Assembly (NCBI GenBank): GCA_014529675.2
Contig: CP076040.1
Coordinates: 930,001 to 994,000 of the forward strand
DNA from: Opitutia bacterium ISCC 52
GTDB lineage: Bacteria > Verrucomicrobiota > Verrucomicrobiia > Opitutales > UBA2995
Length of the DNA: 64,000 nt
Reading direction: 5' to 3'
Each line of letters begins with the position of its first letter. The stretch's first letter is position 1. The position numbers were made by a program, and so were the translations under genes. This document shows, one piece after another, positions 50,550 through 60,408 of the stretch. The notes beneath the pieces are model-generated. The model did not search any database. It saw only the letters and a list, made by a program, of their open reading frames with translations, and had not been told where the DNA came from.

Positions 50550-51791
50550 ATGAATTATGAAGCCGATGTATGTATTGTTGGTGCGGGCATAGCCGGATTG
50601 CGCTGTGCGATGGAGCTGCAAGACTGTGGTTTCAAGGTAATGGTATTGGAGGCTGGTGATGAGGTGGGCGGACGCATTCGCACGGATACCATCGATGGTT
50701 TTCAACTAGATCGAGGATTCCAAGTTATCCTAACGGCCTACCCGGAATGCGCTCGTGTGTTGGACTATGAGCGCTTGAATTTAGGTATATTCGAGCCCGG
50801 TGCCTGGATTTGGACGGGTTCCAAACTTGCCAAGGTGATTGATCCCTGGCGACGCCCTGCACAGGCTTTGCAGGCAGCTTTGAGCCCTGTTGGAACGTTC
50901 AAGGATAAGTGGAAGGTGGCGTGCTTGAGGAATCGTTTGTCCAGAACGTCCATTGAAGAGCTTTACCGAGGTGATGAATCCACTACGATGGCTTATCTCG
51001 AGTCCTTAGGATTCACCAACTCCTTTATTGAGACCTTTTTTAGACCATTTTATTCAGGCATCTTTCTGGAGAAGGATCTTAATACGGCGAATTCGATGTT
51101 TGAATTTGTTTTTAAAATGTTTGGCAAGGGCTATGCTGCCTTACCAACTGGAGGCATGCAGGCGATTCCTAATCAGCTTCTCAAGCGTTTACATCCAAAC
51201 ACCGTGCGTTTTGATGCACCGGTTGTGCGTATCACATCAGATGTCGCGCACATGGAAAGTGGATCGTCTGTAAATGCTCGTGCGGTCGTGCTGGCAACTG
51301 ATATCAGCGCGGCTTCTCAACTTACGGGAGGGTTGGTGGTGGACCGCGGTTGGAATGCTAGCCAGTGTTATTACTTTTCAGCTGATGAGAGTCCTTTATC
51401 GTCTCCAATGATTGCTCTGAACGGCATGGGAAAAGGGTGTATCAACAACATCGCCGTTCCAAGTGATGTCAGTCCAGGTTATGCGCCAGAAGGTAAGTCG
51501 CTTATCTGTGTTTCGACCTATTCGACCGTTGAACCAAGGGTGGTGCAGATTGAGCTGAAGAGCTGGTTTGGTTCCGTCGTCGATGATTGGTCTGAGATCA
51601 GGAGCTACATGATTCCGCAATCCCTTCCCAGACAGTCGCCGGGGGACAATACCTATGGAGGTGCTATGCCTTATCTTGAAAATGGAGTCTGGCTTTGCGG
51701 AGACTACTGTTTCTCCAGTTCAACGGAAGGTGCCATGCAATCCGGTCGAAGGGTTGGCGCATTGGTGGCTGAACAATTGTCCCAAAATTAA
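50550..51791 (+). CDS. FAD-dependent amine oxidase / desaturase-like oxidoreductase
   Basis: 413 residues. The N-terminus has the dinucleotide loop GAGIAGL (G11-A-G13...G16), VLEAGDEVGGRIRTD with the ribose-binding Glu34 and the GGRxRT motif, as in monoamine oxidases, protoporphyrinogen oxidase and phytoene desaturases. The C-terminus WLCGDYCFSSSTEGAMQSGR is the second FAD-binding block (GDxxxxxSxxGAxxSG). Cytoplasmic. It is separated by 6 bp from the ferritin-like/ATP-grasp fusion, so the two are very probably one operon and one pathway. The substrate cannot be deduced. Confidence 0.88.
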   Translation: MNYEADVCIVGAGIAGLRCAMELQDCGFKVMVLEAGDEVGGRIRTDTIDGFQLDRGFQVILTAYPECARVLDYERLNLGIFEPGAWIWTGSKLAKVIDPWRRPAQALQAALSPVGTFKDKWKVACLRNRLSRTSIEELYRGDESTTMAYLESLGFTNSFIETFFRPFYSGIFLEKDLNTANSMFEFVFKMFGKGYAALPTGGMQAIPNQLLKRLHPNTVRFDAPVVRITSDVAHMESGSSVNARAVVLATDISAASQLTGGLVVDRGWNASQCYYFSADESPLSSPMIALNGMGKGCINNIAVPSDVSPGYAPEGKSLICVSTYSTVEPRVVQIELKSWFGSVVDDWSEIRSYMIPQSLPRQSPGDNTYGGAMPYLENGVWLCGDYCFSSSTEGAMQSGRRVGALVAEQLSQN

Positions 51792-51797
51792 GAAGGC

Positions 51798-53915
51798 ATG
51801 GCACTTCAACTACGCGCGTTTGCTGAGCAAGTATTGTTCGCTACCACCTTGGAGGATAAATTAAATTTTCCGCGGGAAGAAATGATCGATACCCAGCCAG
51901 GATCTGCCATCAAGACGCCAGGACAATTGTCACGACCTAAAGAATTGATACTGCGTGCTGAAGATCAGCGCGTGGCCGCTCCTCGGGGATCCAAGTTAAT
52001 CGATGAAAAGGAGCGGGGACGATTACTCCATTTTTTCTGCAATCACGAGCTCCTGGCGACCGAGTTGATGGCGTTGGTCCTTTTAAAGTTTCCGGATGCA
52101 CCGGCTAGTTTTCGCCAAGGTATTCTAGAGACACTTAAAGAGGAGCAGATACATACCAAACTCTACATCCATCGCATGAAGCAGTGTGGCGTGGAATTCG
52201 GAGAGCTTCCATTGAGTGACTATTTTTGGAAGAGTGTATCATCAATGGAAGATCCCTTGGACTATGTGACACGGCTATCACTGACCTTTGAACAAGCCAA
52301 CCTCGATTACTCTCGTGATTATGCGTATCAGTTCCAAGCGGCTGGAGATGCATCCACCGCTGCCATCCTGGACAAAATCTATCGCGATGAGATTGGTCAT
52401 GTTGGATTTGGGCTCAAATGGTTTCGCAGATGGAAAACATCAGGTAAATCGGACTGGGAAGCCTTTCGAGAACGCTTGGCATTTCCACTTTCACCGTCGC
52501 GGGCGAAAGGAAATCAGTTCAATCGGGAAGGGCGCCTTGAGGCTGGCTTGGAAAGTGCATTTATTGATCAATTGCAGCTCTTTCAGCAATCGCGAGGACG
52601 CACTCCTTCTGTATTCTGGTTCAATCCAGATGCGGAGCACTTTGCCGCACGAAACTCAGCGGCTGATTACCCAAGTGAATCATCCCTGGTTCAAAAAGAC
52701 CTCGAGTTTCTTCCTGCCTATCTTTCGCGGAAGGATGATATGCTGGTACTGCAGAAACGACTGGGTGCTGAGTTTCTGAGTCAACTTCAACAAGCCGGCA
52801 TTCAGCTGCCCGAAATTCTTGTGGCGAGCGGGAAGGCCTCGCTAAAGCTCGACCGGAAAATCGGTGCCTTGCGTCCATGGGCATGGACGCCAGACAGTGT
52901 GCGTTTCTTTGAGGATGCTTTTGGCTCATTAACGCGTCCTTATAAATTGGATACGATATGGAATAAAAATCGAAGGCATCTTTTTTCTAAACGTTGGAGC
53001 ATAGAGTGGGGTCGTGTATTTGACGTGTCGGCCTTCGCCGACGACTGGAATGCTTCGGAGGAGGTTTATGGAAAGTTGGCGACATCGATCGACGAAGTGG
53101 AACGGCTTCGAAGCGAATGGCAGGGTAACGGATATGAGAACGTTGTCTGCAAAGCACCCTTTGGGACGGCTGCCGGAGGAAATCGCTGCCTGATGAAAGA
53201 TGACGTTTTGGATAGCCGGATGAGCGAATGGTTAGAGTCGATAATTCGGGAGCAAGGTGAGGTGATCGTGGAGCCGTGGCTGGAGCGCGTCTACGATTTT
53301 TCGGTACAATTTGAAATGCATGAGGATGAGTTGAAGGTGTTGGCCTTCACTCGTTTGGTGAATAATGCGAGGGGGCAATTCAAGGGTATCATTTGCAATG
53401 GATTTGGCAAGGATGCGAGTGATAAGGCGGTTCGTTTCTTGATGCAGCGTTCCTCGGGTCGACCAAGGATCTATGACTGGTATCAACGCAAACTGGCACC
53501 AAGATTGGAGCTGGCGTTTAAAGAGATCGGATTCACAGGACCACTTGGGGTGGATGCCTTCGCTTACCGTACTCGATCAGGTAGCTTGAGGTTGAAGAGT
53601 GTCGTGGAAATCAATCCAAGATACACCATGGGGCGGGTAGCCCATGAACTGAGTCAGCGCGTGGTGCCTGGAGCCTTTGGTCTTTTTCAAATTGTTTCAC
53701 GGAAGCAGATAAAAAAATCCTTGGGGTTGAGCTTGGAAGACTATGCAAAGACCTTAGGCGTTAGGGATGGGATCAGTCCTCAGGATATGCGTTCTGGAAG
53801 ATTGTCGGATGTTTCGATTGTGTTGACTGATCCAAAACAGGCTCAGCGATTTCTGGCGTTGTTTCACATACGATCCTCCATGGAGGAGATTCAGAAATTA
53901 TTGTCTCAGTTTTAA
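51798..53915 (+). CDS. DUF455 ferritin-like diiron domain fused to ATP-grasp domain
   Basis: 705 residues. The first part (about 1-290) is a DUF455 ferritin-like four-helix bundle: E84/E89 in NHELLATEL, E116-x-x-H119 in KEEQIH, E165 in FEQAN and E198-x-x-H201 in RDEIGHV, the complete ligand set for a carboxylate-bridged diiron centre (relative of the MiaE hydroxylase group). The second part (about 330-705) is ATP-grasp-like: KAPFGTAAGG (452-461) in the nucleotide-binding lid, GEVIVEPWLERVYDFSVQFE, LGVDAFAY and VVEINPRYTMG with E604-x-N606 for Mg2+. So one chain could both oxidise a substrate with O2 and form an amide or ester with ATP. It follows the FAD oxidase by 6 bp with AAGAAGG upstream of ATG. 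Confidence 0.8.
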   Translation: MALQLRAFAEQVLFATTLEDKLNFPREEMIDTQPGSAIKTPGQLSRPKELILRAEDQRVAAPRGSKLIDEKERGRLLHFFCNHELLATELMALVLLKFPDAPASFRQGILETLKEEQIHTKLYIHRMKQCGVEFGELPLSDYFWKSVSSMEDPLDYVTRLSLTFEQANLDYSRDYAYQFQAAGDASTAAILDKIYRDEIGHVGFGLKWFRRWKTSGKSDWEAFRERLAFPLSPSRAKGNQFNREGRLEAGLESAFIDQLQLFQQSRGRTPSVFWFNPDAEHFAARNSAADYPSESSLVQKDLEFLPAYLSRKDDMLVLQKRLGAEFLSQLQQAGIQLPEILVASGKASLKLDRKIGALRPWAWTPDSVRFFEDAFGSLTRPYKLDTIWNKNRRHLFSKRWSIEWGRVFDVSAFADDWNASEEVYGKLATSIDEVERLRSEWQGNGYENVVCKAPFGTAAGGNRCLMKDDVLDSRMSEWLESIIREQGEVIVEPWLERVYDFSVQFEMHEDELKVLAFTRLVNNARGQFKGIICNGFGKDASDKAVRFLMQRSSGRPRIYDWYQRKLAPRLELAFKEIGFTGPLGVDAFAYRTRSGSLRLKSVVEINPRYTMGRVAHELSQRVVPGAFGLFQIVSRKQIKKSLGLSLEDYAKTLGVRDGISPQDMRSGRLSDVSIVLTDPKQAQRFLALFHIRSSMEEIQKLLSQF

Positions 53916-54863
53916 GATGCGGTTGTTGTAGCTATCACATATATAAAGTGTGCGATCCGGAGTTACCCAAACTCCGTGAGGACGTGCAAGGGGAGAGCCG
54001 TCGTGGCCATGGTCGAGTAACGTTGAAACGATTTGCGTGGCAGGATCATACCTTCGGATTAAGTGATTCTCTGCGTCGGCGATGATTACAGTATCATCCG
54101 TATCAATACAAAGGTGCTTCGGACCTTTAAATCCAGCCTGCATGGCGGGGCCGTTTTGGGCGTGCGCTTCACCCGTTGCGGCAATCGTGTAAATTCGGCC
54201 GTTTGGGCGTACGACCCTAAGCGCATGACCTCTTCGCGAAAGAATATAGAGATTGCCTTGGGAATCTTCGGCCATACCACGAGGGTCTATGAGTGGACTT
54301 TCTGCTGCGAGTGATCCTTCTTCCGGAACGGCTGTCGTTCCGTTCCCTGCTATGGTATGAATCATACCCGTATCCAGGTCGACAAAACGCACACGGCGAT
54401 TTCTAATATCGGCTATCAATAGACGCTTCTCATCGGGACTTAAGCTGATGGAAATGGGGTCATTCAATTGGGCTTCTGTTGCGGGAATACCATCGCCATT
54501 GTATCCTCCTTCTCCTGTGCCAGCGACTATCGTGTCCTCTCCCGTCTTCTCGTCGATCATCCGAACATAATTGGCGCGCGTGTCTGAGATATAAATGCGA
54601 CCATCCTGGGTTCTGACAAGATTGTGCATTCCATTGAATGGAATATCTGCTCCAAATTGCTCCAATGGTTTACCCACTTCATGCTTCCAGAGACGACCGC
54701 CTTCATATTCCGCGATGAGCATGGCGCCATTGTCATCGAACGCCACGCCAAAGGGGTTGATCAGACCGGTGTCTGGCCCTACCACGAGGGTCAATGCAGG
54801 CTCTTTCGTAGGTTGAGTGCAGGCTGTGAGAGCCAAGGCTGTCAGGATAAATATGAATCGCAT
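53898..54863 (-). CDS. NHL-repeat lipoprotein
   Basis: 321 residues. MRFIFILTALALTAC with Cys15 is a lipoprotein signal. The rest consists of five to six NHL beta-propeller repeats (NPFGVAFDDNGAMLIAEYEG, MHNLVRTQDGRIYISDTRAN, LSPDEKRLLIADIRNRRVRF, TDDTVIIADAENHLIRRYDP, VTPDRTLYICDSYNNRILKL). Such propellers bind proteins or ligands on the outer membrane surface or periplasm. Its 3' end overlaps the convergent fusion gene by 18 bp. Confidence 0.9.
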   Translation of the reverse strand: MRFIFILTALALTACTQPTKEPALTLVVGPDTGLINPFGVAFDDNGAMLIAEYEGGRLWKHEVGKPLEQFGADIPFNGMHNLVRTQDGRIYISDTRANYVRMIDEKTGEDTIVAGTGEGGYNGDGIPATEAQLNDPISISLSPDEKRLLIADIRNRRVRFVDLDTGMIHTIAGNGTTAVPEEGSLAAESPLIDPRGMAEDSQGNLYILSRRGHALRVVRPNGRIYTIAATGEAHAQNGPAMQAGFKGPKHLCIDTDDTVIIADAENHLIRRYDPATQIVSTLLDHGHDGSPLARPHGVWVTPDRTLYICDSYNNRILKLRQ

Positions 54864-57728: not shown

Positions 57729-59267
57729 TTAAGGAGTCGTTCGACCAGATTTCTCCGCCCGGACTAGCTCTTCTCGAAGTTGTATTGCGATGCTCGGATA
57801 ATCATCCAATAGGTTGATAGATTCGTCGAAGTCTCGGTCAAGATGGTAGAGTTGTTTGTGGCTTTGTGGATTGGCGATTTCTCTAGCGAGAAAGTCTAGC
57901 TTGTCTTCAGGTATGGAGTCGGGTGCTGTCCAGGGTCGAATATACTTCCAGCCATCTCTGACGATGGCACGTACGCCCAGGGGAGATTGGACAATGACGT
58001 GATCTCTAGCTGCAGGTGCGGTGGGATCTTCAATTACTTGGGGCCAGAAGCTAAAACTATCTTCGCCCTGATTGTGTCCGTAATCCACGTCCAGCAAATC
58101 GCTCATACTGGCAAAAATATCGAGGAGAGAAATGAGCTTATCGCTACTTTGGCCACTTTGTATCTGACCAGGCCAATGAACAATAAAGGGAACGCGAAAG
58201 CCCCCTTCGTAGATGCTCCACTTTCCTCCACGCATGTGACCACACTGAAGATGTCCCATGTCTCGGGCATCTCCGGCAGGTCCTAATGCAGGCTCGTCCG
58301 ACTCTGACTGAACGGCGACTCCTCCATTGTCACTGGTGAAGATCACCAGCGTATCGCGGTGTTTACGCGCTTTGTCCACTGCTGCAAGGACTTCACCCAC
58401 TTGTGCATCCAATTCCTGGACAAAATCCCCGTAGAGGCCGCAGTCGCTTGTGCCTTGATATTTCTTTGCCGGGGTAACCGGTCCGTGGGGAATGTTGTGA
58501 GCGTAATAAAGGAAGAAGGGCTCTTTGTCGGCTCCTGTGTTTCGATGGATGAATTCTACGGCTTTGTCTGTGATCGTCTGGGCAACGCTTTCATTGCTCC
58601 AATAGACTGCGGGATCCCAGGCACTGATGGTTTGTTTGGTCACCATGAATTGGGCACCGGGAGGAATCACTGCTTTTTCTGAGGTCACCTTGTCTCCTGG
58701 CTTACGATCATAGAAGTCGTGATTCTCAATGAAGAACTTTGGCTGGTTGGCCACGTTAGCTGCCATACCAAAGTAGTAATCGAATCCAACTTCGAGGGGG
58801 CCAGGACCAATTTTTTTATCGGCTGTCCAATCGTAGTATTGGTCAAAATTCTTAAACTCACCGAATCCGAGGTGCCACTTACCAATTACGCCAGTCTTGT
58901 AGCCTTTTTTCTTAAAGAGTGTGCCCAGCGTTTCGCGATCCAACTCAATGGCCAACCCCTGGCCATCCTGGATCACCTTGGTCGGAGGATGCTGCTCACT
59001 TCGCCAGTAATAGCGACCCGTCAGCATACTGTAGCGAGTGGGTGAACAAACGGAGGAGGGCGTGTAGGCCCTGGTAAACTTCATGCCTTCCTTGGCGAGG
59101 CGATCAATATGAGGCGTAGCTATCAGTTCTGCGCCGAACGCTCCCACATCGTTGTATCCCAGATCATCGGCGAGTATCAGAACCACATTGGGCGATTCTT
59201 TTTCCGCTGAGAATAGGGAGGAGGCAACCAGAAGGTAGAGAAAGAGTAGGCTATGTCTTAGGATCAT
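57729..59267 (-). CDS. Secreted arylsulfatase
   Basis: 512 residues from ATG 59267 (signal LRHSLLFLYLLVASSLFSAE; an upstream frame to 59408 is not signal-like). Formylglycine site C74-SPTR, metal ligands D34-D35 in LILADDLGYND, SDNGGVA distal site and YAHNIPHGPVTPAKKY catalytic His. It resembles the sulfatase at 34775 in the FENHD and DYYFGxxxxxxxQPxFFIEN stretch. Likely a sulfated polysaccharide or glycosaminoglycan sulfatase. It shares direction with the GHL10 lipoprotein, 32 bp upstream of it. Confidence 0.93.
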   Translation of the reverse strand: MILRHSLLFLYLLVASSLFSAEKESPNVVLILADDLGYNDVGAFGAELIATPHIDRLAKEGMKFTRAYTPSSVCSPTRYSMLTGRYYWRSEQHPPTKVIQDGQGLAIELDRETLGTLFKKKGYKTGVIGKWHLGFGEFKNFDQYYDWTADKKIGPGPLEVGFDYYFGMAANVANQPKFFIENHDFYDRKPGDKVTSEKAVIPPGAQFMVTKQTISAWDPAVYWSNESVAQTITDKAVEFIHRNTGADKEPFFLYYAHNIPHGPVTPAKKYQGTSDCGLYGDFVQELDAQVGEVLAAVDKARKHRDTLVIFTSDNGGVAVQSESDEPALGPAGDARDMGHLQCGHMRGGKWSIYEGGFRVPFIVHWPGQIQSGQSSDKLISLLDIFASMSDLLDVDYGHNQGEDSFSFWPQVIEDPTAPAARDHVIVQSPLGVRAIVRDGWKYIRPWTAPDSIPEDKLDFLAREIANPQSHKQLYHLDRDFDESINLLDDYPSIAIQLREELVRAEKSGRTTP

Positions 59268-59343
59268 GGCCTCATTGTCGATGAGGTTGGCCCCGGGTGC
59301 AAGCGTATCAATCCAGGCATTAAATAATGAAGCACAGAAGTTT

Positions 59344-60408
59344 TTAGCGTTTCTCAAATGGTTCCAGCTCCACGCCGTGACAATCTGAGCAGCTAGAGAA
59401 ATTTTCACGGTACTGCGCGTGGCAGCAGGGGCAATAACTCGCTGTCGATTGGTCTGCTTGCTTTGGGGGAGCGATCAGATCTTTCTTAGAGAATCCTTGT
59501 TGTGCAATGAAGTGATCAAGAGCGCTTTGAAATGTTTCGGGCGGTGGAGCATTCATTGAGAATGTTAGATGCCTGAGGTAAATGGATAGTTGCAGCTTGA
59601 GGGACTTCCGATTATCCAATGCAGCCGAGACAGCGAGTGGATGTTGAAGGGGCAGCGATTGGCTCATCAGTTGTTGTCCGGCATGCATGGCCTGCCACGG
59701 AAACAATGAGCTCAGGGCTACGACCCAACGTTGTTTTTTACTCTTTGGGTCCAAGCGTTTGGTGGTGAAGAATGCTATGAATAATTGATATATGACAAAG
59801 ACAAAAGCGCTGAACAACACGTATGGGAAGACGGTTTCTTTTCTCAAAATATAGCTGAGTGGAATCGCCCCTAAAAATATCAATGTGAGAATGAATCCGT
59901 TAAAGCGCAGCCATTGGGTAATCGCTTTGGCGCGGTGGACCAAACGAGCAGCGCGCGTTGGGCTAAGATGAGTTTTATAAAACAACTCAATGCTCCTTTC
60001 CCGTTGGGTAAGGGTGGCATCCTTTAGCTCTTGGAGGAGTTCTAATAAATGTGCTGCATACTTGCCGTTTGGTAGCTTGAGCTTGTAGTCATTTCTCAAA
60101 TACAGGGCAGAAGCTTCCTGTCGTAGCTCTGCATCTTGCCAATCCAAGTAGCGCCCCTCCGGTAGGATCAACCGATCTTTGGTGAGATGAAAGGGGAGTT
60201 CCGCTGCGAGGCATTGGGGAAACCATATGCTTGGCCAAGGATTAAAGAGAATAGCCTTCTGGCGGCCATATAGAAGATCGTGAGCTTTAGACTGTTTCCA
60301 GTATTTGAGGCAACGAATCCATCCTGCACTCTGCGGGAGTACCCAATAGATGCTTTCCCATAAGTAAAAGGCGGCGAGAACGAGTATGAATGTCTGGCCG
60401 TCACTCAT
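59344..60408 (-). CDS. Membrane protein with C-terminal zinc ribbon
   Basis: 354 residues. N-terminal hydrophobic segment (TFILVLAAFYLWESIYWVLP), two helices in the middle (FILTLIFLGAIPLSYIL, FPYVLFSAFVFVIYQLF), and near the end YCPCCHAQYRENFSSCSDCH with four Cys in CxxC...CxxC spacing, a zinc ribbon. The cytoplasmic loops are rich in aromatic and basic residues. No assigned family. The zinc ribbon suggests protein or nucleic acid contact. It is 26 bp from the DUF2167 pseudogene. Confidence 0.7.
   Translation of the reverse strand: MSDGQTFILVLAAFYLWESIYWVLPQSAGWIRCLKYWKQSKAHDLLYGRQKAILFNPWPSIWFPQCLAAELPFHLTKDRLILPEGRYLDWQDAELRQEASALYLRNDYKLKLPNGKYAAHLLELLQELKDATLTQRERSIELFYKTHLSPTRAARLVHRAKAITQWLRFNGFILTLIFLGAIPLSYILRKETVFPYVLFSAFVFVIYQLFIAFFTTKRLDPKSKKQRWVVALSSLFPWQAMHAGQQLMSQSLPLQHPLAVSAALDNRKSLKLQLSIYLRHLTFSMNAPPPETFQSALDHFIAQQGFSKKDLIAPPKQADQSTASYCPCCHAQYRENFSSCSDCHGVELEPFEKR

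Follow-up and report, generated by a model that had tools for sequence, protein, structure and literature searches.

Diiron enzymes that use O2 and ATP-grasp ligases that act on amino acids are known to occur together in small-peptide pathways. In the mangotoxin system MboA is found with MboC/MboD, and in the Bes pathway BesC is paired with BesA. A further point of comparison is provided by PDB entries 3wvq and 3wvr, which we take to be PGM1, the peptide ligase of pheganomycin biosynthesis. PGM1 couples a non-protein amino acid to a core peptide (PMC8939145). The locus reported here lies in a 64,000-nucleotide stretch of the Opitutia bacterium ISCC 52 genome, hereafter the window. Whereas the oxidase of the Mbo and Bes systems has the haem-oxygenase-like (HDO) fold and is encoded in a gene cluster, the putative oxidase in the window is a ferritin-like DUF455 domain; in many loci DUF455 and ATP-grasp are fused or overlap by 4 bases, and the search for further conserved genes gave none. 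The window protein differs from PGM1, which has no diiron domain and shares only 14% identity over the alignment; PGM1 also takes a core peptide, and the small ORFs near the fusion included no conserved one. Judged by titles and the starts of abstracts, none of the papers listed from open-licence PMC (PMC13185094, PMC2922099, PMC8939145 and PMC4520260 among them) describes a DUF455/ATP-grasp pair, and the passage available from one DUF455 paper gives no function for the family. The earlier note on this DNA knew of no described pathway with its set of three chemistries; the general pairing of diiron oxidase and ATP-grasp ligase is known, and the DUF455 form did not turn up in the literature searched.

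The two open reading frames of the locus both start with ATG and are separated by 6 bases, as had been noted before, and in the window they are probably co-transcribed. The features are listed in Table 1. The second chain combines a ferritin-like diiron domain and an ATP-grasp domain in one polypeptide, and the site residues of both are intact, which agrees with the first description of the locus.

Table 1. Features of the DUF455/ATP-grasp locus in the window.
Feature	Position	Strand	Details
FAD-dependent amine-oxidase-superfamily oxidoreductase	50550..51791	+	413 aa; PF01593
DUF455 / ATP-grasp fusion protein	51798..53915	+	705 aa
DUF455 ferritin-like domain	51921..52565	+	fusion residues 42-256; PF04305; E84, E116, H119, E165, E198, H201
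pre-ATP-grasp + ATP-grasp ligase domain	52599..53912	+	~residues 268-705; fold search; K398, K452, E492, D586, E604, N606, R608

The N-terminal part of the fusion protein belongs to the DUF455 family, scoring 161.9 bits against a curated gathering cut-off of 34.3, and all 30 aligned fusions match the same family, which Pfam gives as of unknown function. Ferritin-like diiron carboxylate proteins carry E, ExxH, E and ExxH ligands on successive helices of a four-helix bundle. The AlphaFold2 model has this arrangement (mean pLDDT 89.2 over the full chain; 92.4 when residues 1-264 are taken by themselves): predicted helices 70-97, 103-129, 153-181 and 185-212 bear E84, E116/H119, E165 and E198/H201, respectively. 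The six ligands are identical in 30/30 aligned fusions, far beyond chance, and in 66/66 sequences once the Planctomycetota rows, two-gene forms among them, are included. The earlier note had placed E116xxH119, E165 and E198xxH201 correctly; its set was not complete, as the helix-1 ligand E84 was missing. In the VIA comparison, aldehyde-deformylating oxygenase (ADO; Z 14.6, rmsd 3.3, 185 residues) shared the top rows with ferritin-type chains of equal score, and the matches listed also included toluene/o-xylene monooxygenase 1t0q_B (Z 13.4, rmsd 4.5, 198 residues), all in a range of Z where helical bundles may match through arrangement alone. Foldseek returned no match for the N domain at E ≤0.001, and the N-domain profile found ribonucleotide reductase R2 among PDB sequences (E 0.0024). 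Both R2 and ADO have the same bundle type as the DUF455 domain, but R2 is a weak profile match and ADO was found by fold alone, and neither hints at a common substrate. The fold matches listed were ferritin-type bundles; haem-oxygenase-like oxidases were not among them, an absence that is no evidence of difference. The search turned up no DUF455 protein whose function had been tested, so oxidase activity is argued here from ligands and fold, which suggest that the domain binds metal and uses O2.

The C-terminal half is predicted to be an ATP-grasp enzyme on the basis of its modelled fold (Foldseek E 3.2e-13; VIA Z 26.7 to solved ATP-grasps), and in nearly all matches listed the alignment to solved ATP-grasps begins at residues 265-270 of the fusion and extends to 705. 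The best structural match to residues 270-705 is PGM1 (3wvr, 376 residues aligned at the above Z), followed by 8ynd (Z 25.5, 361 residues), 7r8p (Z 23.9, 329 residues) and BesA (8yi6; Z 22.8, 371 residues); purine-pathway ATP-grasps come after BesA in that list, from Z 20.1 downward. K398, K452, E492, D586, E604, N606 and R608 are identical in 30/30 aligned fusions, the E604xN606 pair being at the positions first reported for an ATP-grasp Mg site. In a wider ATP-grasp set D586, N606 and R608 are kept in 68/68 and K452 in 67/68, and E604 is kept in 64/68 with D in the other four. K452 is presumably the nucleotide-binding lysine, and D586, E604 and N606 are taken to be the Mg ligands, so that the sequence would supply the lysine and the D, E and N ligands expected of an ATP-grasp site. 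The window protein scored 13.7 bits against PF18604 (PreAtp-grasp), below the cut-off of 27.5, and 9/30 fusion members matched that model at E ≤1 (best 1.6e-6). None of the ATP-grasp Pfam models was reached by the window protein at E 1. Against PDB sequences the single sequence had one match at E 0.75, the whole profile reached 0.24 at best and the C domain 0.077. No viral relative of the ATP-grasp was seen among 39 pattern matches, and the phage and defence libraries held no family for the fusion. ATP-grasp enzymes act also on proteins, cofactors and purine intermediates. The modelled resemblance to the PGM1/BesA-type peptide and amino-acid ligases suggests amide-bond formation, and this half probably links amino acids.

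The distribution of the two domains was followed across the window's phylum and a sister phylum. Scoring the best two candidates per genome, so that absences are soft, the fusion was present in 22/387 Verrucomicrobiota genomes; the ATP-grasp profile alone, with the best four candidates scored and absences likewise soft, found the same 22. In the 294 genomes of Planctomycetota, scored in the latter way, DUF455 was present in 63/65 genomes with the ATP-grasp: fused in 14, adjacent genes in 30 and unlinked in 19. One of the adjacent pairs, in G402, consists of two abutting genes though one match spans both halves (15 spanning matches including G402). In the other 29, DUF455 lies directly upstream of the ATP-grasp on the same strand. 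An exact 4-base overlap was seen in 16/21 two-gene loci checked, the check covering 21 of the 30 genomes. Unpaired Planctomycetota comprised 2 genomes with the ATP-grasp only, 13 with a strong DUF455 match (100 bits or more) only and 15 with a weak one only. Three Bacteroidota records had the ATP-grasp with no DUF455 detected. These Bacteroidota records and the 13 strong DUF455-only genomes show that neither half strictly requires the other. The conserved unit is DUF455 with ATP-grasp, without the FAD oxidase, and its occurrence in two related phyla points to a short, undescribed pathway.

A branch with support 100/99 separates fused from unfused forms in the N-domain tree, where L163 sits on a very long branch. 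The C-domain tree, whose set leaves out L166 (cut by a contig end), has a matching 100/99 branch, and there three Bacteroidota rows group with the fused forms. Matches of the two-gene ATP-grasps to the profile of the fused ones lie chiefly in the core, most unfused forms have R in place of K398, and Q replaces E492 in 4/68 of the wider set; substrates may therefore differ between fused and unfused forms. The fusion alignment represents 30 of 35 loci: G223 and G289 were left out as near or exact duplicates of L010 and L011, G194 as close to G211/G317, and G251 and G178 because the ORF caller chose another frame. The last two are also the unscored loci of the neighbourhood analysis (33 of 35 scored), in which the scored loci are non-independent: L011 and the G289 locus are apparently one contig, and the flanks of L005, L009 and L034 are short.

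ORF clustering over the 35 loci, and over 75 after addition of 40 Planctomycetota loci, found no conserved third gene. Beyond the pair, the most widespread cluster was seen in 10 loci, and no other cluster exceeded 6. The 10-locus cluster includes the window's sulfatase (57729-59408, PF00884) and was not counted as a partner because it lies at varying distances from the fusion and not always on the same strand with respect to it. The upstream genes scanned were mostly unrelated (lactonase, EPSP synthase, VIT1, M90 peptidase, DUF1643, PQQ propeller, matrixin, glycosyltransferase and redoxin), and those of L136 and L138 have in common only the Ig-type domain Big_9. To look for a precursor gene, 1989 small ORFs lying within 2 kb of 38 loci were grouped; none of the groups covered more than two loci, and all eight groups listed were pairs of the window and L012. 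An unlinked precursor peptide is possible.

Taken together, we see about an even chance that the fusion is a self-contained, bifunctional enzyme making a small oxidised amide or dipeptide-like metabolite in two steps. The DUF455 domain, with a diiron (or Fe/Mn) site in its four-helix bundle, would oxidise its substrate, an amino acid or peptide, with O2; the PGM1/BesA-type ATP-grasp would activate a carboxylate with Mg-ATP as an acyl phosphate and join it to an amine. The two steps would form one unit, fused in Verrucomicrobiota and some Planctomycetota and in other Planctomycetota divided between translationally coupled or unlinked genes, and the two halves would share a substrate. An oxidised amide or peptide-like product, as first suggested for the locus, fits the apparently intact sites. 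Somewhat below even we place the broader proposal that DUF455 is a new O2-using diiron class which, fused to or overlapping with its PGM1/BesA-type ligase partner, makes an undescribed oxidised peptide-like metabolite in many Planctomycetota and some Verrucomicrobiota, a complete two-step pathway for which a single gene can suffice. None of the sources consulted assigns DUF455 a function; a stable ligase partner narrows the search for its substrate to those of amino-acid and peptide ligases, and where one gene encodes both halves the question can be tested through expression of a single protein. If the proposal is right, ferritin-like DUF455 enzymes would join the diiron-oxidase/ATP-grasp-ligase routes now mined with haem-oxygenase-like oxidases.

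The absence of a conserved accompanying gene or small precursor is also what a stand-alone modification would predict, in which an amino acid, attached by the ATP-grasp to a macromolecule such as tRNA or the side chain of a protein, is then hydroxylated by the diiron domain. Enzymes of both kinds with macromolecular targets exist: RimK is an ATP-grasp that adds an amino acid, and MiaE is a hydroxylase acting on tRNA. We consider this unlikely, as the patchy presence (22/387 and 63/294 genomes) is unlike that of a translation-related modification and the nearest solved ATP-grasps include BesA and entries titled peptide ligase.

The DUF455 site could instead scavenge peroxide or hold iron, as a rubrerythrin- or ferritin-like protective module, with the ligase making a compound that is itself protective or has no link to that role. 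For the N domain, the scores of ferritins and rubrerythrins are about as high as those of oxygenases. Stand-alone DUF455 genes are found elsewhere (12/15 plasmid-collection records); in the two surroundings inspected, Azospirillum and Sinorhizobium, no ATP-grasp gene was listed nearby, and the Sinorhizobium gene adjoins a peroxiredoxin gene. However, the oxygenases align over longer stretches (ADO 185-189, 1t0q_B 198 residues) than the bacterioferritins (142-146), and stable pairing with a ligase would be unusual for a stress protein. We regard this reading as a little less likely again than modification of a macromolecule.

The remaining candidate was the FAD oxidase, which the earlier note had coupled to the fusion in a scheme of three chemistries. 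Its 413-residue protein scores 131.1 bits against PF01593 Amino_oxidase (cut-off 19.8), and no NCBIfam model was above cut-off among 25 listed of 93 matched. A three-enzyme pathway general to the family is very improbable: the 6-base gap, the same gene order in L012 and a 55% identical FAD relative ~12.6 kb from the fusion on the same contig in G223 speak for it, but the oxidase adjoins the fusion in only 2/33 scored loci (the window and L012, one genus), and among 387 Verrucomicrobiota genomes, with the best four candidates scored in each and absences soft, a FAD relative (E ≤1e-40) occurs in 31 and in just 4 of the 22 with the fusion, the window's included (Fisher p 0.09, descriptive because related genomes are non-independent samples). 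The oxidase does not always accompany the domain pair, a point the earlier note had proposed to check, and on distribution and neighbours it was rejected as a required partner. With adjacency in so few loci, the evidence is for two chemistries, diiron and ATP-grasp, not three. The FAD oxidase is probably no more than a local neighbour in the window's genus, where it may contribute an additional step. Of the 8 genomes in the window's family, G000, G390 and G393 carry the fusion, and the FAD gene occurs in G000 and G393; G390 cannot decide the matter because the end of its contig cuts off the fusion. Downstream of the FAD relative in both G223 and G310, a 245-aa ORF follows at a distance of no more than 10 bases; in G223 it is a DUF2071 gene, a direct neighbour of the FAD gene that also argues against the three-enzyme scheme.

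The two genes in the window lie on the same strand with a 6-base gap between them, as the earlier note had it. Among the best 25 of the 93 NCBIfam models matched by the FAD oxidase, none reached its cut-off, and its PDB matches, to several oxidases, mostly covered the FAD-binding N-terminus. The region of the fusion after DUF455 is claimed by no Pfam model at cut-off; PreAtp-grasp (Pfam) scored 13.7 bits in the window's fusion and E 1.6e-6 in one relative. A convergent NHL-repeat gene overlaps the 3' end of the fusion by 18 bases at its own 3' end, an arrangement also seen in L012, a locus from the same genus.

Features of the window and of related loci (unprefixed positions, window; G000, the window's own genome; L, loci from relatives and from that genome)
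Feature	Position	Strand	Source	Remarks
FAD-dependent amine-oxidase-superfamily protein	50550-51791	+	window	413 aa; PF01593, 131.1 bits
DUF455/ATP-grasp fusion	51798-53915	+	window	705 aa; PF04305 (DUF455) 161.9 bits, residues 42-256
NHL-repeat gene	53898-54863	-	window
Sulfatase	57729-59408	-	window	PF00884; only neighbour cluster near as many as 10/75 loci
DUF455-family ORF	G000:C1:1423604-1424062 (L003:736-2055)		window's genome	439 aa, 51.7 bits
DUF455-family ORF	G000:C1:3558076-3558699 (L004:886-2121)		window's genome	411 aa, 48.2 bits
FAD relative/245-aa ORF pair	L079:4923-6923		G223	DUF2071
FAD relative/245-aa ORF pair	L080:7013-9011		G310
Stand-alone ATP-grasp relative	L065:7992-9200		Parabacteroides distasonis	annotated 'hypothetical protein'; no DUF455 found in record
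Stand-alone ATP-grasp relative	L067:7986-9101		Prevotella nigrescens	annotated 'hypothetical protein'; no DUF455 found in record

Both halves of the fusion are real, with their site residues intact. In an alignment of 30 fusions (29 from Verrucomicrobiota and one from a Pirellulaceae bin), the diiron ligands E84, E116, H119, E165, E198 and H201 and the ATP-grasp residues K398, K452, E492, D586, E604, N606 and R608 are identical throughout. This bears out the diiron set (E116xxH119, E165, E198xxH201) and the ATP-grasp site (E604xN606) noted earlier. AlphaFold2, run on this alignment, gave a mean pLDDT of 89.2 and a pTM of 0.85. From about residue 268 onwards, the C half matched the fold of solved ATP-grasp enzymes by VIA and Foldseek: 3wvr (Z 26.7, 376 residues), the Streptomyces ATP-grasp peptide ligase 8ynd (Z 25.5), 7r8p (Z 23.9) and BesA 8yi6 (Z 22.8), followed by purine-pathway enzymes from Z 20.1 downwards. 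The N half modelled alone (pLDDT 92.4) forms a ferritin-like bundle. Among the VIA matches listed for it, the top ones were aldehyde-deformylating oxygenases (Z 14.6, 185 residues), with ferritin-type chains tied on Z; a toluene/o-xylene monooxygenase chain aligned over 198 residues (Z 13.4, rmsd 4.5). Foldseek found no match for this half at E 0.001 or below, and a profile search gave ribonucleotide reductase R2 at E 0.0024.

DUF455 and ATP-grasp together are the conserved unit. Among the 387 Verrucomicrobiota genomes, the ATP-grasp profile and the whole fusion picked out an identical set of 22, and every ATP-grasp hit lay in a frame of at least 648 residues. A further 294 genomes come from the phylum of G394, source of the Pirellulaceae locus L016, and are taken as Planctomycetota; 93 of them matched, with 145 rows tallied. 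One row spans both halves in 15 genomes; G402 among them has two abutting genes, leaving 14 fused, including G546, which is cut by a contig end. DUF455 lies directly upstream of ATP-grasp on the same strand in 29 genomes, and the two are unlinked in 19. DUF455 stands alone in 13 genomes at 100 bits or more and in 15 with weaker matches, and ATP-grasp without DUF455 in 2; thus 63 of the 65 ATP-grasp genomes of this phylum have DUF455. An exact four-base overlap (NTGA) in 16 of 21 two-gene loci examined is a sign of translational coupling. Three Planctomycetota fusions sit in long stop-to-stop frames, of 1223 (L161, G575), 1572 (L168, G515) and 935 residues (L166, G546), with the DUF455 match starting at residues 521, 897 and 520; these may hold extra domains or be overlong frames.

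With Planctomycetota rows included, the six diiron ligands are kept in 66/66 and D586, N606 and R608 in 68/68. Asp replaces E604 in the four unlinked rows, Gln replaces E492 in four rows, and Arg replaces K398 in 24 of 28 non-fused rows. One branch (100/99) divides fused from unfused forms in the N-domain tree, where row L163 is on a very long branch, and a matching branch (100/99) occurs in the C-domain tree. The matching branches fit one old split dividing two-gene from fused lineages, the two halves having probably been inherited together. Three Bacteroidota ATP-grasps, from a plasmid collection (Parabacteroides and two Prevotella), fall on the fused side of the C-domain tree. No DUF455 was seen in these three records, which may be incomplete genomes; 14 control genomes had no match in either DUF455 search and four others matched in one. 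A true absence would be in keeping with a ligase able to work without an oxygen-dependent step in anaerobes.

No conserved third gene was found in 75 loci, where neighbours differ by lineage. Apart from the pair itself, the cluster present in most loci is that of the window's sulfatase, which varies in distance and strand. Among small ORFs within 2 kb of 38 loci, no group occurs in more than two loci, the eight groups listed pairing only the window and L012. Since no third part was found, the pathway would either take two steps, starting with a common metabolite, or have further genes elsewhere. The nearest structures, entries titled peptide ligase and BesA, suggest an amide-forming ligase: most likely the ATP-grasp half uses ATP to activate a carboxylate, which it then couples to an amine as an amide. 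Activation of O2, presumably at a bound metal, would fall to the DUF455 half, which most likely oxidizes the ligase's substrate or product; the two halves would share a substrate. To this two-part reading we give an even chance. DUF455 precedes ATP-grasp both within the fusions and in the two-gene form, an arrangement that is not informative on chemical order. Modification of a macromolecule by the pair is unlikely, and a protective ferritin-like role for the DUF455 half is rather improbable. In contrast with known pathways joining a haem-oxygenase-like diiron oxidase to an ATP-grasp ligase (MboA with MboC/MboD; BesC with BesA), the oxidase family here is DUF455, the genes are fused or overlapping, and no other conserved gene was found. 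No publication pairing DUF455 with ATP-grasp was found in searches of open-licence PMC papers.

The FAD oxidase, previously thought to be coupled to the fusion, was rejected as a member of the conserved unit. Its relative adjoins the fusion in 2 of 33 scored loci (a few with short flanks; two further loci unscored), the window and L012, of one genus. FAD relatives (E up to 1e-40) occur in 31 of the 387 genomes and together with the fusion in 4, the window's own included. A family-wide three-enzyme pathway with this oxidase is therefore very improbable, although in G223 a FAD relative (55% identical) lies about 12.6 kb from the fusion on a shared contig, perhaps by chance or through old linkage. 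In two of six FAD-relative loci laid out (G223 and G310), a 245-aa ORF, DUF2071 in G223, lies at most 10 bases downstream and is a possible partner.

Elsewhere in the window's genome, the DUF455-family ORFs of L003 and L004 have no ATP-grasp part and carry the DUF455 match in their C-terminal half. In the L003 ORF the N-terminal half weakly matches ferritin; judged from these matches, this ORF may encode a double ferritin-like protein.
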